From Dermatophagoides farinae (lineage: Eukaryota; Arthropoda; Arachnida; Sarcoptiformes; Pyroglyphidae), in NCBI RefSeq assembly GCF_024713945.1, contig NC_134677.1:2607001-2671000 (forward strand): a DNA stretch of 64,000 bases. Reading direction: 5' to 3'. Below the pieces are notes generated by a model. The model was not told where the DNA came from. It saw nothing but the letters and a program-made list of their open reading frames with translations, and did not search any database. Positions 31,201 through 64,000 of the stretch are shown in pieces. The translations under genes were made by a program, and so were the position numbers. The stretch's first letter is position 1. The number at the start of each line of letters is the position of its first letter.

Positions 31201-33110
31201 TAAATTGATCAAAAAAAAAAAAAAAAGAAAATAAACCATAATGGTCGATTTTTTTCATTATTTTTTTTTATCGATCGTTTATCGGATTTGGTTTTAAAAA
31301 AATCAATAATCAGAAGAATTAGAACTCAGGCTGCCATCTACGAACAAAAGCCATAATCTATAGATTATTATCAAATTCATTTCTGTCAATTTGTAATGAA
31401 TTTTTTTTCATTTAAAAGACGAAACGATTCTTACACATTAATTTTTTTTTTGGCCATTTTTCATTACACACTATAGTTGACATTAGGTGTAATCTCCATA
31501 ATTTCAAGACAAACAAATAGTAATAGTAATAATGATTTATGATCGAAGAAAAAAAAAAGAGAAAAACAAATTCAATAGCAATTCAAATAAAAACTGAAAC
31601 AATCAAACAAACAAAAAAGGGTTGATTTCGCATTCGATGACCATGAGAATATTGTATACTTGTTTTTGATCGCCACTTATTTTTCAAAACTTTTACGAAA
31701 TATATCTAACACTATGCAAAGAACAAAATGCTGAATTGTCAAACCATTCAATTTCAATCAAATCGATGAAGAAAAAAAAATTCAAGAATATAATGACAGT
31801 AGACAACCCCTTTTATTTTGGTGAAAATGAGATTTTGTTATTATTATTGCCATCTCAATCCATGATCATCGGAATAGATCGACACACACACACACAGACA
31901 CAAACACGAATTCAATGTTTAATGTTCATCACGAATGAATGAAAGTGCAAGGTTACACACCAAAATGATGATGATAATGATAAGTGAACATCATCATTCG
32001 CGCCATTACCGTGAATCCATCATCATCATCATCATCATCTAAAAGAAAAACAAAAAAAAAAGAAACGAAAAGCCCACAGCAAAATAAAGTGGTTGGCTGA
32101 CAGTTTCAAAAAAATGACAGCAGCAGCAGCAGCAAAAAAAAAATAACAATAGGAATTGTAATGAACACACATCGTCTTGTTGTTGTTGTTGTTTTGTTCG
32201 CAATAATCATCTTTCAATGACCATTAAGTTTTTTTTACGAGAAAATGATTGACGATTCTAATCATCAACTACCAACAACCACCACCACCACCATCGTAGT
32301 CGTCGTCTTCGTTTCATGAAAATATATTTATAATTTGAGTTTCATATTGATAAATGATGATTGAATGACAATCCATTGATGATGATCATCATCATTATGA
32401 TAATTTCCAACAAGTAGTTTTGATAGATGTGTTGTTATTGTTTTCTTTTTATATGATGATCATGGAGATCATTTGCATCCGATTTCGAAACATGGACAAG
32501 TAAAAAATAAAAAATATCATTAAAAATGATAGTATAAAAATAATTTTATGCTTACTGAGAATTGGTAGCAAACCAAATAATATGGAACATTTTCATCATG
32601 AGATAATTATAGTGGAATTATTCAATTTCAGTCGACAATTATAAATTTTGATTCTGGTGTAGCCATCGGCAACGCATGCAAAAAAACCGGGAAAATATTC
32701 TTCCTATTTCAACGAGAATGTCGGTTATGAGAATTCCAGATTGTTCCACAAATCGAATAATAATTTGACCAATTTTATTATTTGCCTCATAACACACTGG
32801 CAATATTTTAGCTTAAATTAGCACTGCCATCTATTGTAAAATGGTTGATTTATAGTTTTTAGTTTTTAACACCAGATGACAATCAGTTCAGACAGAGCAG
32901 CTACTGAGCAGAATAACAACAAAATTTCGCTCCAAAACGACCGTCTAAACTTGGCAAACTCTAAATCAACCGTCATTGTTTAAGTTACTAAAACAATCGT
33001 TTATTCGATGACCAATAGTTGAAAATTACTGGTGTATAGTCAGCAAAATTGAATTTTCAGAATGTTACATTACAATGATAATGGACAATTGAAAGTTTAC
33101 AAAAAAAAAA
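31201..33110. other. Intergenic flank of the histone cluster
   Basis: No gene is supported. The left part is repeat-rich. From about 32,540 the sequence becomes less repetitive and unusually free of microsatellites. Two CTGCCATCT motifs lie at 31331-31339 and 32824-32832. A possible minus-strand donor (GTAAGC near 32555) has no convincing exon behind it. No H1 gene, with its lysine/alanine-rich tail, is visible here. Confidence 0.5.
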
Positions 33111-33126
33111 TACTCTTATTCGTAAT
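33111..33126 (-). promoter_or_regulatory. Histone downstream element-like purine motif (H2B)
   Basis: On the minus strand the sequence ATTACGAATAAGAGTA begins 8 bases after the H2B stem-loop. An almost identical motif lies at the same distance behind the H4 stem-loop. In animals a purine-rich element here pairs with U7 snRNA to direct cleavage of histone pre-mRNA; the AAGAG core fits that role. Confidence 0.6.
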
Positions 33127-33134
33127 TAAATTGT

Positions 33135-33150
33135 GGTCCTGAAAAGGACC
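33135..33150 (-). promoter_or_regulatory. Histone mRNA 3' stem-loop (H2B)
   Basis: Read on the minus strand this is GGTCCTTTTCAGGACC: a 6-bp stem and 4-base loop matching the canonical metazoan histone stem-loop bound by SLBP. It starts 32 bases after the H2B stop codon. It marks the gene as replication-dependent with a non-polyadenylated mRNA. Confidence 0.95.
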
Positions 33151-33181
33151 GTTTTATATGATGAATTAAATAATGAAATTA

Positions 33182-37960: not shown

Positions 37961-40900
37961 TTAAAAAATAAAAGTCGATGACGATGATGATGATGAAATG
38001 GCTGCTGTGAATGTTATGAAAAAGCTGATTATGAATAAGAATAATGATGTTGCAGCCAACCAATACAATGGTGGTGGTTGTGAATCATCTGTTTTCGGCA
38101 ATCGTTTTGAACTGTTTTCGGCAATCATCTTGTTGTTGTTGCTGTCGTAATCATCTTCATTATGTTATTGTTGATTGATTTTGGATTCGTTTTCATTAAA
38201 AAAACAATAAATAATAAGAAAGATAATAAAGCGGTCAGATAATTGGATAGCGGCTAGCTGAATTCATTCATTCAACATTTGTGGATTCTGATTCAAGGGA
38301 GAGGAATTCATATGAAAATTGAAATGAATCATGTTGAACTCCCTAATCGATATTGAATTCAATTTGATTATTATCAGTATAATGCTAAAGAATTTTTTTT
38401 TGTAGATTTTTTTCTACCATTTGATTGACACTTACGTTCAATGGATAGTTGTAGCAAGCTATTCGGTGATTTGGAAGGAGATGGAGATGATGGTGGTAAC
38501 AATGAATGTGGCTCTTGTTGGTGTTTAAAACTACGGTTGTCTGAAGATGAACAAATGGACTTTTTGATCATCTTTTCGTTGTTCACGGTTATCGAATTCG
38601 ATGTTTTGCCTAGTGAATAATTCGTTTCCGATTCGATTGTCGTTGTATTGTTGTTGGTGATGCTGGTATTCGTCACGGATGGTTGTTGGCCGTTGACGTC
38701 GACGTCTCCAATCATCGGTATCGGTACTGCTGGTCGATTGATGCAGGAATCGGGACATTCGTTGTTCTCGTCTTTGGCTTCGTTCAATGAACCTTTCTTT
38801 TTTTTACTTCTAGTTTTGATCTTAATTTTTCTATCCATTTGTTTACTACTAATCGATTCATTATTGCCTACCACAGGGTTGACATATTCGGTGTTTGGAG
38901 CTGTTTCCATCGATTTCATTGATCCATTCGATTCAGGTTGAGCATTATCATTATTGTTTATTGTTTGGAATGCAGGTGGTAAAACTGTAGCTACAATAGC
39001 CGTTTCATCTGTCGGTTTTGCAAGTTGAATATTGAAACAGGTTTCGATATTTGGTGATTCTGGTGATGGTGATGCAGCTACGTTATTATTAAGAACTTCA
39101 TTAAATTGATCCATCCATGAATCATCGTCGGCTACATTGCTTGCATAATTCAATTCAATCAATTTACGATTGATGAAAATTTCATAATCTTCAGCTGATG
39201 TACACCAAAGTAGTACGTGAGCAATTTCATCATCAAGATTTCCATTGATTTCCAATGATTGTTGGTGTCCGTTCGAATGATTTATTTGCAGAACTGATGC
39301 TGTCAATATCTGATCATAGGTCATATCTTCAAAAAATTGACAACATTCCATTGGCCATTGATCATAGTATTGATCATCACGTCTATTATTGACATGAGAT
39401 GACTGTTGTTGATGATGATGATGTGGATAAATAAATGCTAATGATGAACGTACAGCGAATGCTGGTACTTGTGCCATTTCATAGGTTAATGGCCGTATCA
39501 TTTGTATATGCACTAGGCTTGAATAACCGGAATCAACATCTTTGACCATAATGAATTCATCATGATTATTACTATCGGAACTATAATGGTCATCAAGATT
39601 GGATCGTTCAATAATCTGTACACGGCGCCAATCCAATTCATCATCAATATAGCATGCCCAATATGAACCGATTGTCAATGTTTGAGTTGATGGTGGTATA
39701 CTAACCAACATTCGTAACTGGCGTTCTTCATCATCAACATCATCAATATCATCATCATTCACATTGCCATCTTGTCCAATTGCTTCGACTGATTTGTAAA
39801 AATTTTGAAATCGTTCCAGAAAATCTTCGAATGCATTCGTACCGATTTTTTCATCATTGATTATAAGATAAAAATGCGATGGTGAAACAATGTGACAAAT
39901 TTCTACTAGTAGGTAACGATTTAGATCAATTTTCGGTGAGGGAATTATTGAAATAGAATCGATCGATGTTAATGGCATGATTATGGTCGGCGAAATATCT
40001 GGTTGATTCTGTTGTAATAAATGTTGATCATTATCACGGTTCGTTTCGGCTCCAGCTCGTCGACGACTTTTACGCTTTTTTGATAATTTTTTCGAATTAT
40101 ATCGTTGAACAGGTGGAGCATTGAGCAAAAATTCATCGACATCACCTGCACCAGATTCTTTATCATTGTTATGATCATTATCACAGCGATATTTATCCAA
40201 ATGTTGGCCATAATCACAATAATTTGGTGATGGTGTTTTCGCTATAAATGCATTCGCATACATCGCATCGATTGTTGATGACTGATCAATATTAGTGGTG
40301 ATTTCGGTTGGATGACGTTTTTTCATTTCACCGTCAATCATTGTACTTTGTCCAATATTAGGAGAGCTGATCAAACCGCCATCGTTTTCATCATTTGATC
40401 CATGGCAAACAATAACTTGGGGTGATACCATAGTCGTATTTATCGATGATGATTGTTGTTGTTGATGTTGGTCACTAATCGTTTCCGTCGGTCTGCCGAA
40501 CAATTGCCTTATTTGATCTGTAACAGTTTTAAGTAATTGTTGCTGATTTGAATTGTACATACAATTATCATTTAAATTATCGAAATTTGACATACTGCTA
40601 CAATCGTAGAATGTACCGGCTGATGAACTAACTGCCGTTGATAATGTTCTTTGTTCTTGTAATCCATTGGTTTGATTATAAACCATTTGAATGATTTTTG
40701 CATTACCAATACCACGTATTTCATCCAACGATGGTGATCGATCTGAATTCCTCGATGAACCACTATTTACACCGATTAGTTGATTACTACCTGAATCGCT
40801 ATTATTATTATTATCATGATTCAATAAATGAGCATAAAGTGTTGATATGTCATCACGTGAATGCGAACGTATTGTTTCATTTGTATGATTATTTGATGAA

Positions 40901-41672
40901 GTTTCATCACTACTTTGATTTCCTGAGGGCGATAATTTACCTCTATTATTAGAGCTATCAATATTGTTATTATTGGCAATATTTGTTTTGAAAGCAATAG
41001 GTGGTGTCAAGAGCATTAATTGATTTTTCGAATTTGTTGATGGCAACGATGATTCGGTACTTAAATTAAATTCAGTGTTTTCTTGAATTGGAACACCTTC
41101 TTCTCGATGATGATAGCTACCAGCTGATGAAGCCGGTGGCTCATAACCAGTAGCACTGGAATATCGTCTTGGAAATGCTGGCATAGAATTGACCCTACAA
41201 GAAAAAACAACAGCATGATCATGATCAAGCGATCATTTCGGCGTAATAGTTGGGCAAATAAAAAAAACAAAAATTCAATACTTACACAGCATAATCTCTA
41301 GGTCGATCATGATGGATCATCATCGATATTTCTCCATCCGAATTTATATTCAAACATTCAATCTTACGTATTAATTCATCATTTTCTTCTCGTATTTCTC
41401 GAAGTTCTTTACCAAGAAAATCTACTTCAGCGGTACGAACATCAAGTTCATCTTTGAGCGATTTATTCTCAGCAGATAAGAATTGACGATCTTCTTGTAT
41501 GCTACGATAAGGAAACGGAAAATTCCATACAAACATCAGCGAAACGTCGTAATTCACCAATGAATAGTTCACTGAATTGATTGATCATTGATTGTGTATC
41601 TGAAACAAATCGTTGTATACACAGCTGCAATTGTTCATCTTTTTCCATCAATTTCGATGCAGTAGTAGCCAT
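37961..41672 (-). CDS. Tudor-domain protein with coiled coil and C-terminal membrane anchor
   Basis: Four exons, minus strand: 41672-41558, 41493-41286, 41194-38436 and 38154-37961; the phases agree and give 1091 residues. The start is the ATG for MATTASKLMEKDEQ. Residues about 35-100 form a coiled coil (ENKSLKDELDVRTAEV, ELREIREENDELIRKI). A long Ser/Asn/Gln-rich region follows, then an extended Tudor domain at about 530-795: LLVEICHIVSPSHFYLI, GSYWACYIDDELDWRRVQII, VKDVDSGYSSLVHI, a PAFAVRSSLAFIYP segment and an AEDYEIFINRKLIELNY strand. The last exon adds DDSQPPPLYWLAATSLFLFI, a membrane span near 1057-1080, and only about 11 residues after it, as in tail-anchored proteins. The two least certain junctions use AAG acceptors (41494 and 38155). 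Such proteins often organise RNA-silencing granules; that role is inferred. No orthologue name is assigned. Confidence 0.8.
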
Positions 41673-57200: not shown

Positions 57201-59677
57201 CGTATTCGAGAGTGTGTAATTTAAATTTTCGCTTTTTTTCTGTTAAATTAAGATTCCAATTTTATGCTATTTATATTCGGGCCGTAAATCTCAATCAAAT
57301 TTTCGAATAATAATATAAGAATCAAAATAAACAAACAAAACAAAAGAAATGAAAATCAATTCAAATGGGAAAATTACCTTTTTTCATAGATGTTGCCGGT
57401 GTTTCGATTTTAGCTATTGTTGATTTCGTTTCCAATGTTTGTTCTTCATTGTTATTTGTGGAATTTCTCATTAATACGACTGCTTTCAATGAAGCTATGC
57501 TTTCATCATCATCATCTGAATGTTGATTTTTATGATATTCTGGTTCAGTTTCATCAACGACTTCATCGATACTATCAATAATTTCAACAATTTCATCCAC
57601 ATCATCATTATCATCAACTTCTTCAATCAATTCTTCATCAATATTTTCAATTTCAAATTCAACCGATTCTAATGACGATGATGATTTCGATTCATGATTT
57701 CCATTATCATTATTATCCACTGATGGCTTGTATTTATCTGTAATCGATGTCGATTTGTTTGTTTCTGTTTGGTTTTATATACATGCAAATTTTAAAATTC
57801 AAACAAAGGCAATTATCGACAAGTAGAAAAAAAGGATTAGATAGAATAGAATGGAAATTGTACAAACAAACAAACAAACAAACGAAAAAAAAAATTTTGT
57901 TTCAATTGCCCAAGTACAAGTAGCTAGAGCCAATCAATCAATTTGATCGATAAAATAATCGATCGATCGATCATCATCACGAATCGTAAGAGGAATCGAT
58001 TCATACAAGACATTCAAAACTTTCGAATCATTGGATGGTATCATTGTTACTTGTGGTTTTTTGGTGGACATTTTTTTCCGAATTGCAACATTCATTCGTT
58101 TCTAACTTAATAATTTATACGGCAAAAAAATCAAATTAGTTGCAACCAAATAAACAAAAACAAAGATAACGATCAGTTTTTCTTGTGGTAAACATTCGAC
58201 TACATTCTAATGAATAAGTTGAAATTTAAATTTTTGTTTTTTTTTGTTTCTTGAAAATTTTAAATGATCAAAGCAATTAGTGTGTTTGAAATATTTCTTT
58301 TCTAGTACTTCAAATGACATTTGATACAAGAACCTACAGATAAATTGTTCATTTCGTCCGAACAACGTACAACCCCGGGTGAAGTCTGATAATGATTAAG
58401 ATGATCATGAAAATGGCTCGAAGGCAATCAAACCATCGAACCTGTGTGGTTTTTTATTTTATTTCAATGACCAGTTTTTTTTGTCATTGACCACCACCGA
58501 TAATATTCGAAATTAAGGGTGGTGGCCATTTGTATATACGGTGGCAACTTGGTTAACGAGCAAAATTCGTTATCAGTGTTAGCACTGGCCATCGTGAACA
58601 TCGATACCACTGTAATGGATTTTTTTTTTCGTTTGTTTGTTTATTTGTTTGGCTTTCTTGGCAAACATTATGAATACATACGGATAGAGTTGACTTGTGG
58701 TTGATCAGCTTCTGCAAGTTCATTTTCATCATCATCATCTTCGTTGTCGTCGAAAAAATGCAAATTAGCAATTGAACTAAAATGGCCAACACGATTGATA
58801 TCATTGATGGCGAACCCACTCATTATGTTATAAGGATTGCTATTTTGATTTTTATTCAAAATTGATGATGATTCGATTGAATTGGATGTAATTGTTGCAA
58901 TTCCACTGCTGATGCTTGTTGTTTGATTTTGGTTATTGTGTTGGTTGAAAGATGGATTAGTAGCTATAGTATCCAATGCAGCCAAAGATGATAATGATGA
59001 TGTTGGTGTACGATTGTCATTGGTTACAATAGCCGAATAGGAATTCCGATATCGTACAACCAATGTACGATAATATGAATCGGTTGGATGTTCCCAGCTG
59101 GATTTTTTATTCTGCTGATCGTAATAATAAAGTCGACCTTTTCGATCTTCACTGTTGTTAAAATAATACCAGAAAAGAGAGTGGGATACAAAAGAGGGTA
59201 TGGAATAAAAAAATATAAAACAAGATTAATCAATCAATAAAATTGGTGATTCTCATATAATGAAAAAATAGTGGCCAACGACTAGTAGAGAAAAAAATGG
59301 AAAATCACAAAAAGTTGATCACGTACACGGCAATCCAACCAGATGGTAATGATGAAAGCAATCCGGCTCGAGCTATCCACAATAATTCCGGCTCGGATAT
59401 TGGATCGATTCCAATTAATTTGGCGTAAAATATTACATCTATATTAACAAACACAACACATATAGCATGATTCCACAAGAGAGAATAAATATTACATCCA
59501 AAATATTTTGGTAAGAATGTTATCATGAAAATAGAATCGCTAACAGAGAAAAAAAAATTGTGATGTCAAACCATCAGTAATACCTTCAGTATCCAAATCG
59601 GATGGCAATATATTCAATTCTTTCAATATAATTCGTGAACAGCTATTATTCTTATGGATAGAATTTTTTGTTGTCAT
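51285..59677 (-). CDS. CEP164: Centrosomal protein CEP164 (distal appendage, WW domain)
   Basis: Eight exons on the minus strand: 59677-59584, 59438-59327, 59151-58682, 57737-57378, 55152-54799, 54240-52822, 52749-52050 and 51990-51285. Phases agree at every junction and give 1404 residues, close to human CEP164 (1460). CEP164 sits on distal appendages of the mother centriole and recruits TTBK2 to start cilium assembly. The N-terminal signature is unmistakable: IFYAKLIGIDPISEPELLWI followed by a WW domain at about 62-95 (SGWIAV, GRLYYYDQQNKKSSWEHPTD; both Trp present). A long acidic, disordered region follows, then a coiled coil in exon 6 (for example LRENLRKELNESKELLRKQM, DEERESLMKRLNELDEKI) and a Ser/His/Asn-rich C-terminus. 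Exons 5 and 6 use AAG acceptors and are the least certain. A further 48-nt in-frame exon is possible in intron 3. Confidence 0.9.
55153..57377. other. CEP164 intron 4 (2.2 kb)
   Basis: The longest intron of the gene, filled with repeats like those of the left half of the window (a TG tract near 55321-55344, GAT runs, poly-T). The plus-strand frame at 56473-56712 reads partly like protein (SMRIIEESLDLYYSRQLQM) but has no splice partner or domain. Confidence 0.6.
57738..58681. other. CEP164 intron 3 with candidate cassette exon
   Basis: A 944-nt intron. It is mostly AT-rich, but holds a GC-richer 48-nt island at 58338-58385 with its own splice signals (listed separately). Confidence 0.6.
58338..58385 (-). 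other. CEP164: Candidate 48-nt cassette exon of CEP164
   Basis: On the minus strand the island is bounded by ATTATCAG and by GTAGGT. It is 48 nt long (a multiple of three), about half G+C against an AT-rich background, and open in the reading phase of the neighbouring exons (phase 1), where it would insert FTRGCTLFGRNEQFI plus a junction residue between exons 3 and 4. The coding capacity, length and both splice signals agree, so it may be an alternatively or constitutively used exon. Confidence 0.45.
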
Positions 59678-60162
59678 CAGCAATCACCCCGGTTTTGTTC
59701 GGTTTATCTGGATTTTTCTTGAATCATCAACGTCATGATAAATATCGCACATATATTTAGGAACGATACAAAAAAAAAGGATGAGATGCTATTATAACAT
59801 GACCATGGACAACAATAAATAATCTACATATACAGAATTGCGAACACGATAAAGAAAGAATTTCTAAATTGACTCGGATATGATGATGTTGATAATATCT
59901 TCTATCTTTCACGGATAATATAATGTCTGATATATTTTATTCGAAACATTCACATAGATATGGTTTAATGGCACACACAAACACATGAACATTTGGCTGT
60001 AACGATGTCAAACATTTATGATTTTTATGATGATTATGATGATGTAAATATTCTTGGGTGGTATTTGTAAATAATAATTTCAGTACAGAATTTAGAAAAT
60101 TGACCTGAATTCTAGTTTGATTTGGGATAAACCGATGAAACATAATGCGATAGTGTAGTTTT
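59678..60162. other. Upstream region of CEP164
   Basis: AT-rich, no supported coding sequence. Likely contains the CEP164 leader and promoter. Confidence 0.5.
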
Positions 60163-60480
60163 CTATTTAGTTTGCCAAAGACAAGGTTTTTTGTTGTTAT
60201 TGTTCACTGGGTTGTTAGATTGCACATTACACATACCATGGAATTCATGCCATCCAAATGTGTTGCCATAGTGATTTATACAGGACATTTTCTTCTCCAT
60301 TCCATTGATGAAGATTTTGGACCGAACAATTTTACGTTGTCGGCACGTTGCCATGACATTAGCTTTTTATATATAGGTGTCATTTGTATCATATGTCTCC
60401 GATTGAAACAACATTCTCCAGGACGAACGCCAGGAGGCAGATCTGATGGTGATGATGAATTTTGCCCTTTACGTTAAGAA
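60163..60480. other. Non-repetitive open segment of uncertain strand
   Basis: This block is free of microsatellites and is open on both strands. Plus: from ATG at about 60238, KCVAIVIYTGHFLLHSIDED and KQHSPGRTPGGRSDGDDEF, stop at 60477, with AATAAA near 60588. Minus: a frame with RPGECCFNRRHMIQMTPIYK and another from ATG at 60354 that reads to a GTATGT donor near 60234. Neither product is recognised. It looks like part of a small gene or a conserved leader, but the strand cannot be settled from the sequence. Confidence 0.25.
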
Positions 60481-60772
60481 AATTCAATTTTCCGTAGTTA
60501 TATTTCATTATATAACAATCATTGATTGTAAACTTTTCAATTAACATTTGTAACTAATTAATTATAATAATAATCAATTCATAATAAAAATGACTAATTT
60601 TGTTTCAATATATCCTAATGAAAATTTTGCATTGGTATTTTTCCATAGACGTCATATATGACAGGCATGAAAAGTTGCTCAATTTATTGAAAATGTGATT
60701 AATTTGTGATTCACTTTTAATTTTTCTATATCATTTGAAACTAAGCTTGCTTTGTTTTAACAAGTTGAAAAC
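60481..60772. other. Upstream region of the Gag-like gene
   Basis: AT-rich, with no long terminal repeat, no primer-binding-site-like sequence and no other gene seen. Confidence 0.5.
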
Positions 60773-61552
60773 ATGGAACAGCAAACGAATCATAATCAAC
60801 AAAAAGATATTCCCATTTTGAATTTCTCAAATTATAATCAATGGCGAACTCTAATGATGACTAGATTGATGGAAAAAGATTTAGATAAAGTCGTCTGGGG
60901 CAATGAAAATGATCCATCATTACCATCAGAAATGAATGCCGAAGCATTATTATTCATATACAAACATTTGGATCGTACATTACGACAACGATTTCGAAAT
61001 GAACGAAATGCAAAACACTTATGGACCGAATTGACCGGATATTTTGAACGCTCTAAATCGACATTTATTACATTCATACGTTTGAAATGTCAAAAGGGTA
61101 AAAGTCGTGATTATTGTACGCAATTTTTCACCATGATCGAACATCTTAGAATGTATGGTATTCAATTCGATGAAAATATTATCCAAGAATTACTCTTATC
61201 GAAATTACCAGCTGAATTCGATTCATTAATACATTCTATTCGTTATAATACACAGCATCGTGCCTATACACTTGAAGAGCTTAAATCTTTGATTTTTTAT
61301 TACGAATCGTTATTTGAAAAAAAATGTCAACAGCAAAATGCCAAACAACATTGTCAACATCATCAACAACAACAGCAACATCAACAACAACAACAACAGC
61401 AGCAGCATCCAATGAATAATTTCTGGATCCCAAACGGTTTTTCACAACCATTTTTTCATCCCCAATTTACCTTTATTCCACAAAATTTTGCTAACCCATA
61501 TTATACAAATCAACAACAACAGCAAACTAACTATATTCCTAGATCAAAATGA
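60773..61552 (+). CDS. Stand-alone copia-type Gag protein (retrotransposon-derived)
   Basis: An intact intronless frame of 259 residues. Residues about 14-185 match the Gag core of Ty1/copia retrotransposons (DUF4219/UBN2 type): ILNFSNYNQWRTLMMTRLME near the start, AKHLWTELTGYFERSK in the middle, then YCTQFFTMIEHLRMYGIQFD and the hallmark ELLLSKLPAEFDSLIHSIRY. The Gag zinc knuckle (CxxC with H and C) is absent. Instead the C-terminus is Gln/His-rich (about 186-212), then rich in Phe, Tyr, Asn and Pro (FWIPNGFSQPFFHPQFTFIP). No protease, integrase, reverse transcriptase or flanking LTR is visible within the 500 bases on each side. The intact frame and replaced tail suggest a host gene captured from a retroelement; an alternative is a recent truncated insertion. 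Function is unknown; Gag-derived proteins elsewhere can form capsids or bind RNA. Confidence 0.8.
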   Translation: MEQQTNHNQQKDIPILNFSNYNQWRTLMMTRLMEKDLDKVVWGNENDPSLPSEMNAEALLFIYKHLDRTLRQRFRNERNAKHLWTELTGYFERSKSTFITFIRLKCQKGKSRDYCTQFFTMIEHLRMYGIQFDENIIQELLLSKLPAEFDSLIHSIRYNTQHRAYTLEELKSLIFYYESLFEKKCQQQNAKQHCQHHQQQQQHQQQQQQQQHPMNNFWIPNGFSQPFFHPQFTFIPQNFANPYYTNQQQQQTNYIPRSK

Positions 61553-62155
61553 TAAAAAAAAATCTAAACACAATATTTACTTCAATAACATTTTCTTTTT
61601 TTGTCTTTTTTTCTCTAAATAAATCAACTTTTTTCGATATATTTTTTGTTCTTATCTCGTTTTCTCCTTCATTCACCATTGATCACAATCAAAATTGAAA
61701 TGAAATTTATTTTCCAAACCACAGGTAGCCAAACATTTATGGCTGGTCAGCTTGATTTGCCATTGACAACGACGATCCATAGCCATAAAACATGTCACAT
61801 AGCTATAGTATCACTATAGCGCCATTGATCGATGATCACAACGATGGTCACCATACATTCTCATGGAAGGTTATTCATCGATCAAGAATTTTTGAAAGGA
61901 TTTTTTCTCAAAGAAAAATGAATTGCTATTTGGCTCCAATTGTCTTATCTTGGTCTTTGTCTCTGTCTGGTCCAAAAATGTAAGCTAGGTCCAAATTTTG
62001 AACTAAAGGTGAATTAAAGGTGTGTCACTCAGATAGATTGGTTGGTGGTCCTTGGACAAAGTTTATTTAAATCGATGACCAAACATGTCTGGTTGATCAT
62101 TTCGTTTTGTGCCATTGTCATTGATTGATGCTCGGTAATTTCGAAATTGATAATA
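61553..62155. other. Intergenic region
   Basis: No supported gene. After an acceptor-like CAAACCACAG near 61725 a 27-codon frame is open (QTFMAGQLDLPLTTTIHSHK) and stops at about 61812; no donor partner was found. No retroelement pol or LTR remnants follow the Gag gene. Confidence 0.5.
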
Positions 62156-62983
62156 ATGAAATTTTCGATTGTGTTTTTCATTTTTTTAATCGTCACATTA
62201 ATGACGAATCTTTGTGCATCTAATGAAACTAATGAGACAAATGCTGAACAAGAAGTTATCGAAAAAATTTCGTCAATAAATCCTGTTCCAGTGCCGGCCA
62301 GGCTGCCACGTCAACAACGACAACAATTATCACAACAGCAGCAGAAGCAGCAAGATTCGCCCATAAATTCGGCTATCGAAATGTTGAACATGGTCACAAA
62401 ATTTACAACACAAACAAATGAAATGTATCAGGCTGCACAGAAATTGGCAAAAGAAAATGGTTTCGGTAATGGTATGGTCGATCCAATAACATTCATACCA
62501 AGTATCATAATCTATGGTGCCATAAAAATCGTTTCCTATTTGGTATCCACATTTATTTATGCTAGTTCATTGATTGCTCCATGGCAAATGGATCCGAATG
62601 CAAAAATTTCATTTATCGATCTAGAATCATTGAATAATATTGATTATGATACTATTTCGAATTCTGTAAGATCAGTCCCGGAACGTTCATTTAAATTGCT
62701 GGACATTCGTGAAGAGGAATGTAAATCGCGTGCTATGTGTGAAATTGGTCAACATATCCATAGTTATTGGCCTCGTGTGGCTACTTATATTCGTTTAGCC
62801 GTTGATCAATTGAACGTTGCAAGTGATGATAATAATACAATGGCAATGTTACGTGGACTTGGTTGGGCCGATTGTGAAGAAACATTTCGACAATCACAAT
62901 GTCAACGTTCACCATTTAGAAAATTTTATCAGATTCTAACATCATTACAAAAATTACTTCAACAACATTATTATCAATATTAG
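62156..62983 (+). CDS. Secreted or membrane protein, function unknown
   Basis: An intronless frame of 275 residues. The start chosen is ATG at 62156, which puts a classical signal peptide at the N-terminus (MKFSIVFFIFLIVTLMTNLC, cleavage likely near residue 22). An Asn/Thr/Glu-rich segment with NET glycosylation sites (24-29) and a Gln-rich linker follow. Residues about 113-141 are strongly hydrophobic (IPSIIIYGAIKIVSYLVSTF) and could span a membrane. The C-terminal 90 residues hold four cysteines (189, 195, 240, 249) that may form two disulfides, in FKLLDIREEECKSRAMCEIG and GLGWADCEETFRQSQCQ. This layout resembles uncharacterised arthropod secreted proteins, but no family is named with confidence. 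Confidence 0.65.
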   Translation: MKFSIVFFIFLIVTLMTNLCASNETNETNAEQEVIEKISSINPVPVPARLPRQQRQQLSQQQQKQQDSPINSAIEMLNMVTKFTTQTNEMYQAAQKLAKENGFGNGMVDPITFIPSIIIYGAIKIVSYLVSTFIYASSLIAPWQMDPNAKISFIDLESLNNIDYDTISNSVRSVPERSFKLLDIREEECKSRAMCEIGQHIHSYWPRVATYIRLAVDQLNVASDDNNTMAMLRGLGWADCEETFRQSQCQRSPFRKFYQILTSLQKLLQQHYYQY

Positions 62984-64000
62984 ATCGAATAATTCATGAC
63001 AATATTTCTTAATGAAAAAAAATGGAACGAAATTATCATTTTTTCAAATTTTTCAATATCAAAATTTTATTTCTCTTTGAAAAATTCTATTCGCTTTAAT
63101 GTTTTTTTATTTTGCATATATGCATGTGTGTGTGTGTTATAACCCGAGTTAAAATTTTTCGATAATAATAATAAAATGGAAAATTTTTCATTTCAAGAAA
63201 AAAAAATAAAGCAATTAAAATGGATCAAAATTATCTCCAATTATTATTAGATGATGATGATAATTAAAACATTTTCTTTTACTTGTTGTTGTTTTTGTTT
63301 TTCATGCTCATTATTCAATTTATTAATTGAAAAAAATGTTCATTGCCAGTTTGGTCATCTGAAGATGCATATCTACAAAAATTTTTTTCCTCACTAATTG
63401 GACATTTTTATCGTCCAAATTTCATATTATCAAAATGATATGACTTTTTCCCCTTGAATGTGTGAACATGGCTAACATTTTGAACTCATAAATCCAATTG
63501 ATGAGTGAATATTTGAAAATTTTTTATTCGTTGGCTCATTTTCTTTGGTGTTTAAATTTCAAAATTCGAATTTAGTCCCCATATCTATAGTTAAAATGGA
63601 AAAAGAAATACAACAAATTGACCAAAAAGAAAAATTTAAATTCTTTGCGTCGATTTTTGTTGTTGTTGTTGTTGTTGAATTCATAATGATATCATGGCCA
63701 TATAGTGATGGTTGTTTTCTGCCTCGGTTATTGGTTTTTCGCTTGACATAATCAATATAAATTGTGCCCAACATTGACAATGATGTCATCTTGTTTTTTT
63801 TGTTGTTGTTGTTGTTGCTGGTTGGATGATATCAGACTTGTTTATCAGATGAAATGAAAATATTAAAAAAAAGACATTGTCCAGGCGTCCGTTCAAAATC
63901 ATTTCTGTTATACCAATGATGATGATGATCATCATTTTTTTTGCACAGTACAATAGTCAGAATATTATGTTGTCGACTTTATCATTGTTCTGTTGTTCAA
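62984..64000. other. AT-rich tail of the window
   Basis: No supported gene. There are poly-T/A runs, a short TG tract near 63125 and GTT repeats near 63658-63676 and 63801-63817. A minus-strand frame at 63559-63789 reads partly like protein (TIYIDYVKRKTNNRGRKQPS) but shows neither splice sites nor a domain. Confidence 0.5.

Follow-up and report, generated by a model that had tools for sequence, protein, structure and literature searches.

A solitary copia-type Gag gene, probably domesticated, in the mite Dermatophagoides farinae

The stretch of DNA analysed here, called the window throughout, is a 64-kb segment of the Dermatophagoides farinae genome (C1:2607001-2671000), and the genome searched for comparison comprises 62.4 Mb in 22 contigs. 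Near the end of the window lies a gene which, judging from its sequence, is a solitary host-resident descendant of a Gag of the Ty1/copia type (Pseudoviridae) and has probably been domesticated. We favour this reading because the frame is intact, stands isolated, is divergent and has host-like codon use. The gene, its parts and its flanks are the following.

60773-61552, plus strand: copia-type Gag gene, a single open frame of 259 codons (open reading frame and Pfam)
60758-60760, plus strand: in-frame TAA, 12 bases ahead of the start codon, whose context is GAAAACATGG (sequence)
60773-61330, plus strand: capsid core, residues 1-186, predicted all-helical, with PF14223 at residues 32-175 (Pfam and model)
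61094-61330, plus strand: stretch resembling a C-terminal capsid lobe, residues ~108-186, limits approximate (matched weakly in fold by the Drosophila copia capsid and by the capsid C-terminal domain, CA-CTD, of Ty1 p22)
61322-61549, plus strand: tail with Gln/His and Phe/Tyr/Asn that replaces the CCHC nucleocapsid knuckle, residues 184-259 (composition)
61618-61623, plus strand: AATAAA, starting at the 66th base past the stop, a possible polyadenylation signal (sequence; function putative)
59700-60772, no strand: 5' flank, single-copy DNA without long terminal repeat (LTR) or significant pol match (blastn, tblastn)
61553-62150, no strand: 3' flank, single-copy DNA without LTR or significant pol match (blastn, tblastn)

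The frame is complete, from an ATG at 60773 to a TGA closing at 61552, and encodes a protein of 259 residues. An earlier reading of this DNA, made from its letters only and referred to below as the sequence-only reading, had described an intact frame of 259 codons, which is confirmed by the start, the stop and the in-frame TAA upstream. Under a simple base-composition model, the per-start chance of a random frame of this length is about 3.6e-10, and this value together with the match to Retrotran_gag_2 (PF14223, the copia-type Gag family of Pfam; E 7e-13) leads us to reject a chance frame. The Pfam match covers residues 32-175 and scores 48.8 bits against a cut-off of 27. The copia Gag core with the motif LLLSKLPAEFDSL, also seen in the sequence-only reading, is borne out by this match and by the L-P pair within the motif, which is invariant across the 12 rows of our Gag alignment (A1, consisting of the window protein and 11 other Gag loci taken from the 31 other PF14223 matches). 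The profile of A1, of which the window protein makes up one row in twelve, matches the Drosophila copia capsid 8vvw with an E of 8.6e-28. When only the single sequence was used, the search of PDB returned nothing meaningful (best E 0.43), and the search of the window protein against NCBIfam gave no match. Fold prediction, which the sequence-only reading had proposed as a check, supports the capsid assignment weakly while the sequence supports it: the top Foldseek match for both predicted models is 8vvw, as a weak match, the matches of the C-terminal lobe reach 3.1-3.9 Å over 72-79 columns with an E of only 1.4-3.2, and VIA-align of the models did not tell helical folds apart.

Behind the capsid core the protein departs from the usual Gag. 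The CCHC zinc knuckle, which is present in 18 of the 22 distinct Gag loci examined (L010 and L020 being counted as one), is absent from the window gene, as had been claimed from the sequence; the other three loci without it are copies with a truncated frame, searched only up to the truncation. In its place comes a tail, residues 184-259, in which Gln occurs 26 times, Asn 8 times, Pro and Phe 7 times each and His 6 times; it has 4 basic residues and no acidic one. The sequence-only reading had called this tail prion-like. The Gln tract is real, but the CAG/CAA tract that encodes it (query 556-650) has at least 47 other DNA matches in the genome, so such a tract is weak evidence of special function. 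Gln tracts occur often in the genome, and the downstream frame at 62156 has one as well, so the tail may reflect a local tendency and not a dedicated prion-like feature.

Several kinds of search around the gene failed to turn up other parts of a copia element. As queries for tblastn we took 28 protein fragments of copia elements resident in this genome, namely 7 of Gag, 7 from just after Gag, 6 of reverse transcriptase and 8 from beside it. Against the whole window they gave one significant match, that of the L020 Gag to the window gene (E 3.4e-13), and the other 69 rows all had E >= 0.09 with no significant match to pol; this search is not very sensitive, as the window gene itself was detected by one of the seven Gag pieces. 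A permissive search of the gene and about 2.5 kb on each side let five of the seven Gag pieces detect the gene at E <= 0.02, and its best match in the flanks, to reverse transcriptase over 24 residues, lies near 63.5 kb on the opposite strand and, with an E of 0.008, is not significant for 28 queries. The genome-wide profile searches placed no match in the window among the 50 listed for RVT_2, the 28 for gag_pre-integrs and the 53 for the integrase rve, and along the contig 1.03 Mb separate the gene from its nearest RVT_2. Direct repeats of LTR size were absent within 59000-63500, and blastn of the 5 kb upstream against the 2.4 kb downstream of the gene gave no LTR pair. As a positive control, the LTR test recovered repeats of 155-298 bp in all three copia elements tried. 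The claim that pol and LTRs are missing thus stands for integrase, reverse transcriptase and LTRs, protease being a part that was not searched by profile.

In the three control elements (L020/L058, L022/L059 and L027/L060), the LTR repeats are 98.9-100% identical, so that recent transposition of copia in this genome is probable.

Outside matches to the CAG/CAA tract, the DNA of the gene occurs once in the genome, and the 5' flank and the 3' flank are each present once as well. The flank DNA compared with the fetched loci gave one match only, of 24 bases (E 7e-4), to L007, a locus itself retrieved via the CAG/CAA tract. No near-identical copies bearing LTRs, which the sequence-only reading had named as a sign against a host gene, were found elsewhere: the gene and its flanks each occur in one copy, and the closest Gag detected shares 28-29% identity with it. 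A still-active or multi-copy element was rejected for the single-copy DNA and the lack of LTRs. The protein search of the genome, with E up to 10, gave 11 matches including the gene itself, and the closest other Gag belongs to an intact copia frame of 1302 residues at C10:577900. In a tree of 13 Gags, in which two of ten inner branches are starred, the window gene stands beside this Gag, L020, at 92/91 on a branch not starred, and its own branch is twice as long (1.9 vs 0.91). Scans of viral and prokaryote contigs gave no relative, which says little as these collections may omit near records.

That the gene has been kept by selection is suggested by its intactness and isolation. Under neutral change, the chance of the frame acquiring no stop is 0.36, 0.076 and 0.006 at 0.02, 0.05 and 0.1 substitutions per site, respectively, and lower still with an assumed 10% of indels. 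A very young age of the locus is unlikely, because it shows no sign of the element's other parts, unless a deletion removed the rest of the element. Codon usage is supporting, not decisive: the gene has a score of +0.045 per codon in the direction of host genes, while the host set, that is the eight other window frames of at least 200 residues, which were taken as host genes and of which some were verified, scores +0.005 to +0.096; nine copia Gags score -0.085 to +0.048, eight of them negative, and the window gene lies above eight of the nine. At strongly conserved Gag positions the window protein retains 16 of 24 identities with a threshold of 60% and 11 of 13 with 75%, which is inside the range of the nine other Gags. 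The domesticated gene of the sequence-only reading is in this way partly supported, namely in its single locus and its intact frame.

Two observations weigh on the other side. RVT_2 lies within 6 kb in 21 of the 32 PF14223 matches in the genome and not in the other 11, so the lack of reverse transcriptase alone proves little; and in terms of residue class, the conservation of the window Gag (33 of 56 and 32 of 44) is the lowest of 10 Gags, a count in which one each was kept of the pairs L022/L023 and L031/L034. Both lend some weight to an orphaned relic, that is, a piece of a copia lineage otherwise lost here, from which pol and LTRs were deleted recently and whose frame is not yet broken, without host function; incomplete copies are evidently frequent. 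As regards the 11 Gags without RVT_2, the flanks were opened for the window and L054-L057, the Gag piece only was taken for C8:1068040, C10:1072958 and C5:3302931, and C6:4896198, C5:644360 and C4:2152260 were left out. L057 is a 92% copy of the start of the L027 Gag with integrase pieces adjoining, the start of L054 resembles L038, and L056 is a frame of 125 residues that is partly 38-44% like L022/L027. All three are truncated and belong to, or lie close to, families that the genome still contains, whereas no kin above 29% was found for the window gene, which, unlike the other opened Gags without RVT_2, appears to span the two capsid lobes in full and is remote from all elements detected. 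Moreover, an LTR, a remnant of pol or a flank present in several copies would be expected after a recent insertion, and none was found. We consider such a relic unlikely.

The most concrete alternative function is a restriction like that by Drt2, in which a Gag kept by the host would poison the assembly of copia particles, by analogy with Drt2 and p22 acting on Ty1 in yeast. The genome does contain full-length copia frames, and their near-identical LTR repeats make recent activity likely; the C-terminal capsid lobe, which in the excerpted account is what makes p22 and Drt2 inhibitory (PMC12530519), is present here according to weak fold matches, and loss of the knuckle fits a dominant-negative protein. 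However, co-assembly with the present elements is unlikely because the nearest resident Gag is only 28% identical, while the same excerpts describe p18m and Drt2m as subfamily-specific, the Ty1 subfamilies concerned having Gags with 78.9% identity (PMC12530519). The target could then only be an element outside this assembly, and we hold this function to be rather improbable. It is very improbable, too, that the frame is one exon of a larger host gene with a captured Gag domain: fusions of Gag to host proteins are described for plants in the consulted part of one report (PMC9784723), but the frame has its own start, an in-frame stop 12 bases before it, its own stop codon and an AATAAA 66 bases on. 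Least credible of all is a gene still mobile, either as a non-autonomous Gag-only element or as a reverse-transcribed Gag transcript. Precedents appear in excerpts on the Gag-only LTR elements of plants (TR-GAG) and on the spliced Gag transcript of copia (PMC9784723, PMC11835246), against which stand the single copy and the absence of LTRs.

Under the favoured reading of a domesticated host gene, an old copia insertion or a captured gag would have lost pol, the LTRs and the nucleocapsid end, while selection would have kept the part coding for the capsid. The core with its two presumed lobes may still self-associate via capsid contacts into oligomers or shells, and the Gln-rich, weakly charged tail may have exchanged RNA binding by the zinc knuckle for multivalent contacts of low complexity. 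The outcome would be a capsid-like scaffold or granule protein, not a packager of its own RNA. The most likely function is accordingly that of a self-associating capsid protein, kept by the host, in which the RNA binding of the zinc knuckle has been lost.

Host genes derived from capsids, such as Arc, PNMA and PEG10, transport RNA from cell to cell or have developmental roles. The window gene is a candidate member of this known class, the domesticated Gags, from an uncommon source, namely a copia-type Gag in an animal. Several published systems, all drawn on here in excerpt, allow a comparison. Arc, PNMA, RTL/SIRH and Gagr are likewise single host genes from a retroelement capsid (PMC11011659, PMC7231272), but they derive from Ty3/gypsy (Metaviridae) while the window gene is copia-type. 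The Drosophila copia Gag, or spliced copia-gag capsid (8vvw; PMC11835246), belongs to the same capsid family by the A1 profile and is the top Foldseek match; the protein of its virus-like particle has a CCHC knuckle and comes from an LTR element with pol, whereas the window gene has neither. Drt2 and p22 of yeast (PMC12530519, PMC4599808) are Gag-derived and of Ty1/copia type as the window gene is, and an endogenized Ty1' fragment at a fixed locus codes for Drt2 (PMC12530519). Drt2 works, however, through the C-terminal capsid lobe on its source subfamily, and the window protein appears to have both lobes, carries a Gln-rich tail and is 28% identical to its nearest element. The domesticated Gags of plants (PMC9784723) are host-resident and without LTRs like the window gene, but they are multi-exon fusions with host domains, one of them with PF03732, while ours is a single frame with PF14223 in which no fusion to a host domain was detected.

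With regard to how rare such a case might be, the domesticated capsids of animals in the excerpts examined are of Ty3/gypsy type, aside from Drosophila copia, for which a possible early stage of domestication has been proposed (PMC11011659, PMC7231272, PMC11835246), and the excerpted survey of the human genome gives no Pseudoviridae capsid sequence (PMC11011659). Gag domestication is reported in plants, the element type being not clear in the text consulted (PMC9784723), and yeast Drt2 is the sole clearly copia-type (Ty1) domesticated Gag in the excerpted literature (PMC12530519), so that an animal one would be unusual. Among the matches listed by our literature search, none describes a domesticated copia-type Gag in a mite. 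If the favoured reading is true, the second great branch of LTR elements, copia, is also a source of animal capsid genes, and the gene offers a natural test of capsid function without a nucleocapsid, the knuckle being exchanged for a Gln-rich tail.

The genome may hold several Gag-derived genes, as two further Gag-like candidates with no RVT_2 in their vicinity suggest. L055 (C8:2122798-2123250, plus strand; L055 nt 2299-2751) is a Gag-like frame of 151 residues with an N-terminal lobe and a CCHC knuckle but without a C-terminal lobe, matching PF14223 with 31 bits; no LTR pair was found at this locus and the nearest RVT_2 is 86 kb off. Its nearest kin, 32% identical over the N-terminal part, is L061 (C8:2421789-2422565, plus strand; L061 nt 1290-2066), whose 258 residues resemble the N-terminal lobe of Gag, carry a different tail and match PF14223 with 17.4 bits, below the cut-off of 27; the start chosen for it is a Met inside a longer open frame (nt 1290), and its flanks were left out of the tests for LTR and pol. 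The window gene, L055 and L061 keep different parts of Gag, from which one might tentatively suppose that this lineage domesticated copia-type Gags more than once, as a Pseudoviridae counterpart in an animal to Arc/PNMA/RTL, an idea for which the odds appear rather poor.

Two open stretches neighbour the gene.

58668-59225, minus strand: open stretch within the adjacent gene, carrying a WW domain at E 1.3e-6 (profile match)
62156-62983, plus strand: downstream open frame with no Pfam match at E 0.01 (open reading frame and Pfam)

The first of these had been named CEP164 in the sequence-only reading, a name checked only in part, by the WW domain in this exon. Among other loci of the genome, L050 encodes a protein resembling group-2 allergens, which looks mite-like. 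Elsewhere in the window, a 3' untranslated region stem-loop of histone type lies at 33110-33155 on the minus strand (Rfam RF00032, 34.3 bits against a cut-off of 34), and an open frame of 952 residues with a Tudor domain (E 4.3e-5) extends over 38374-41232 on the same strand.
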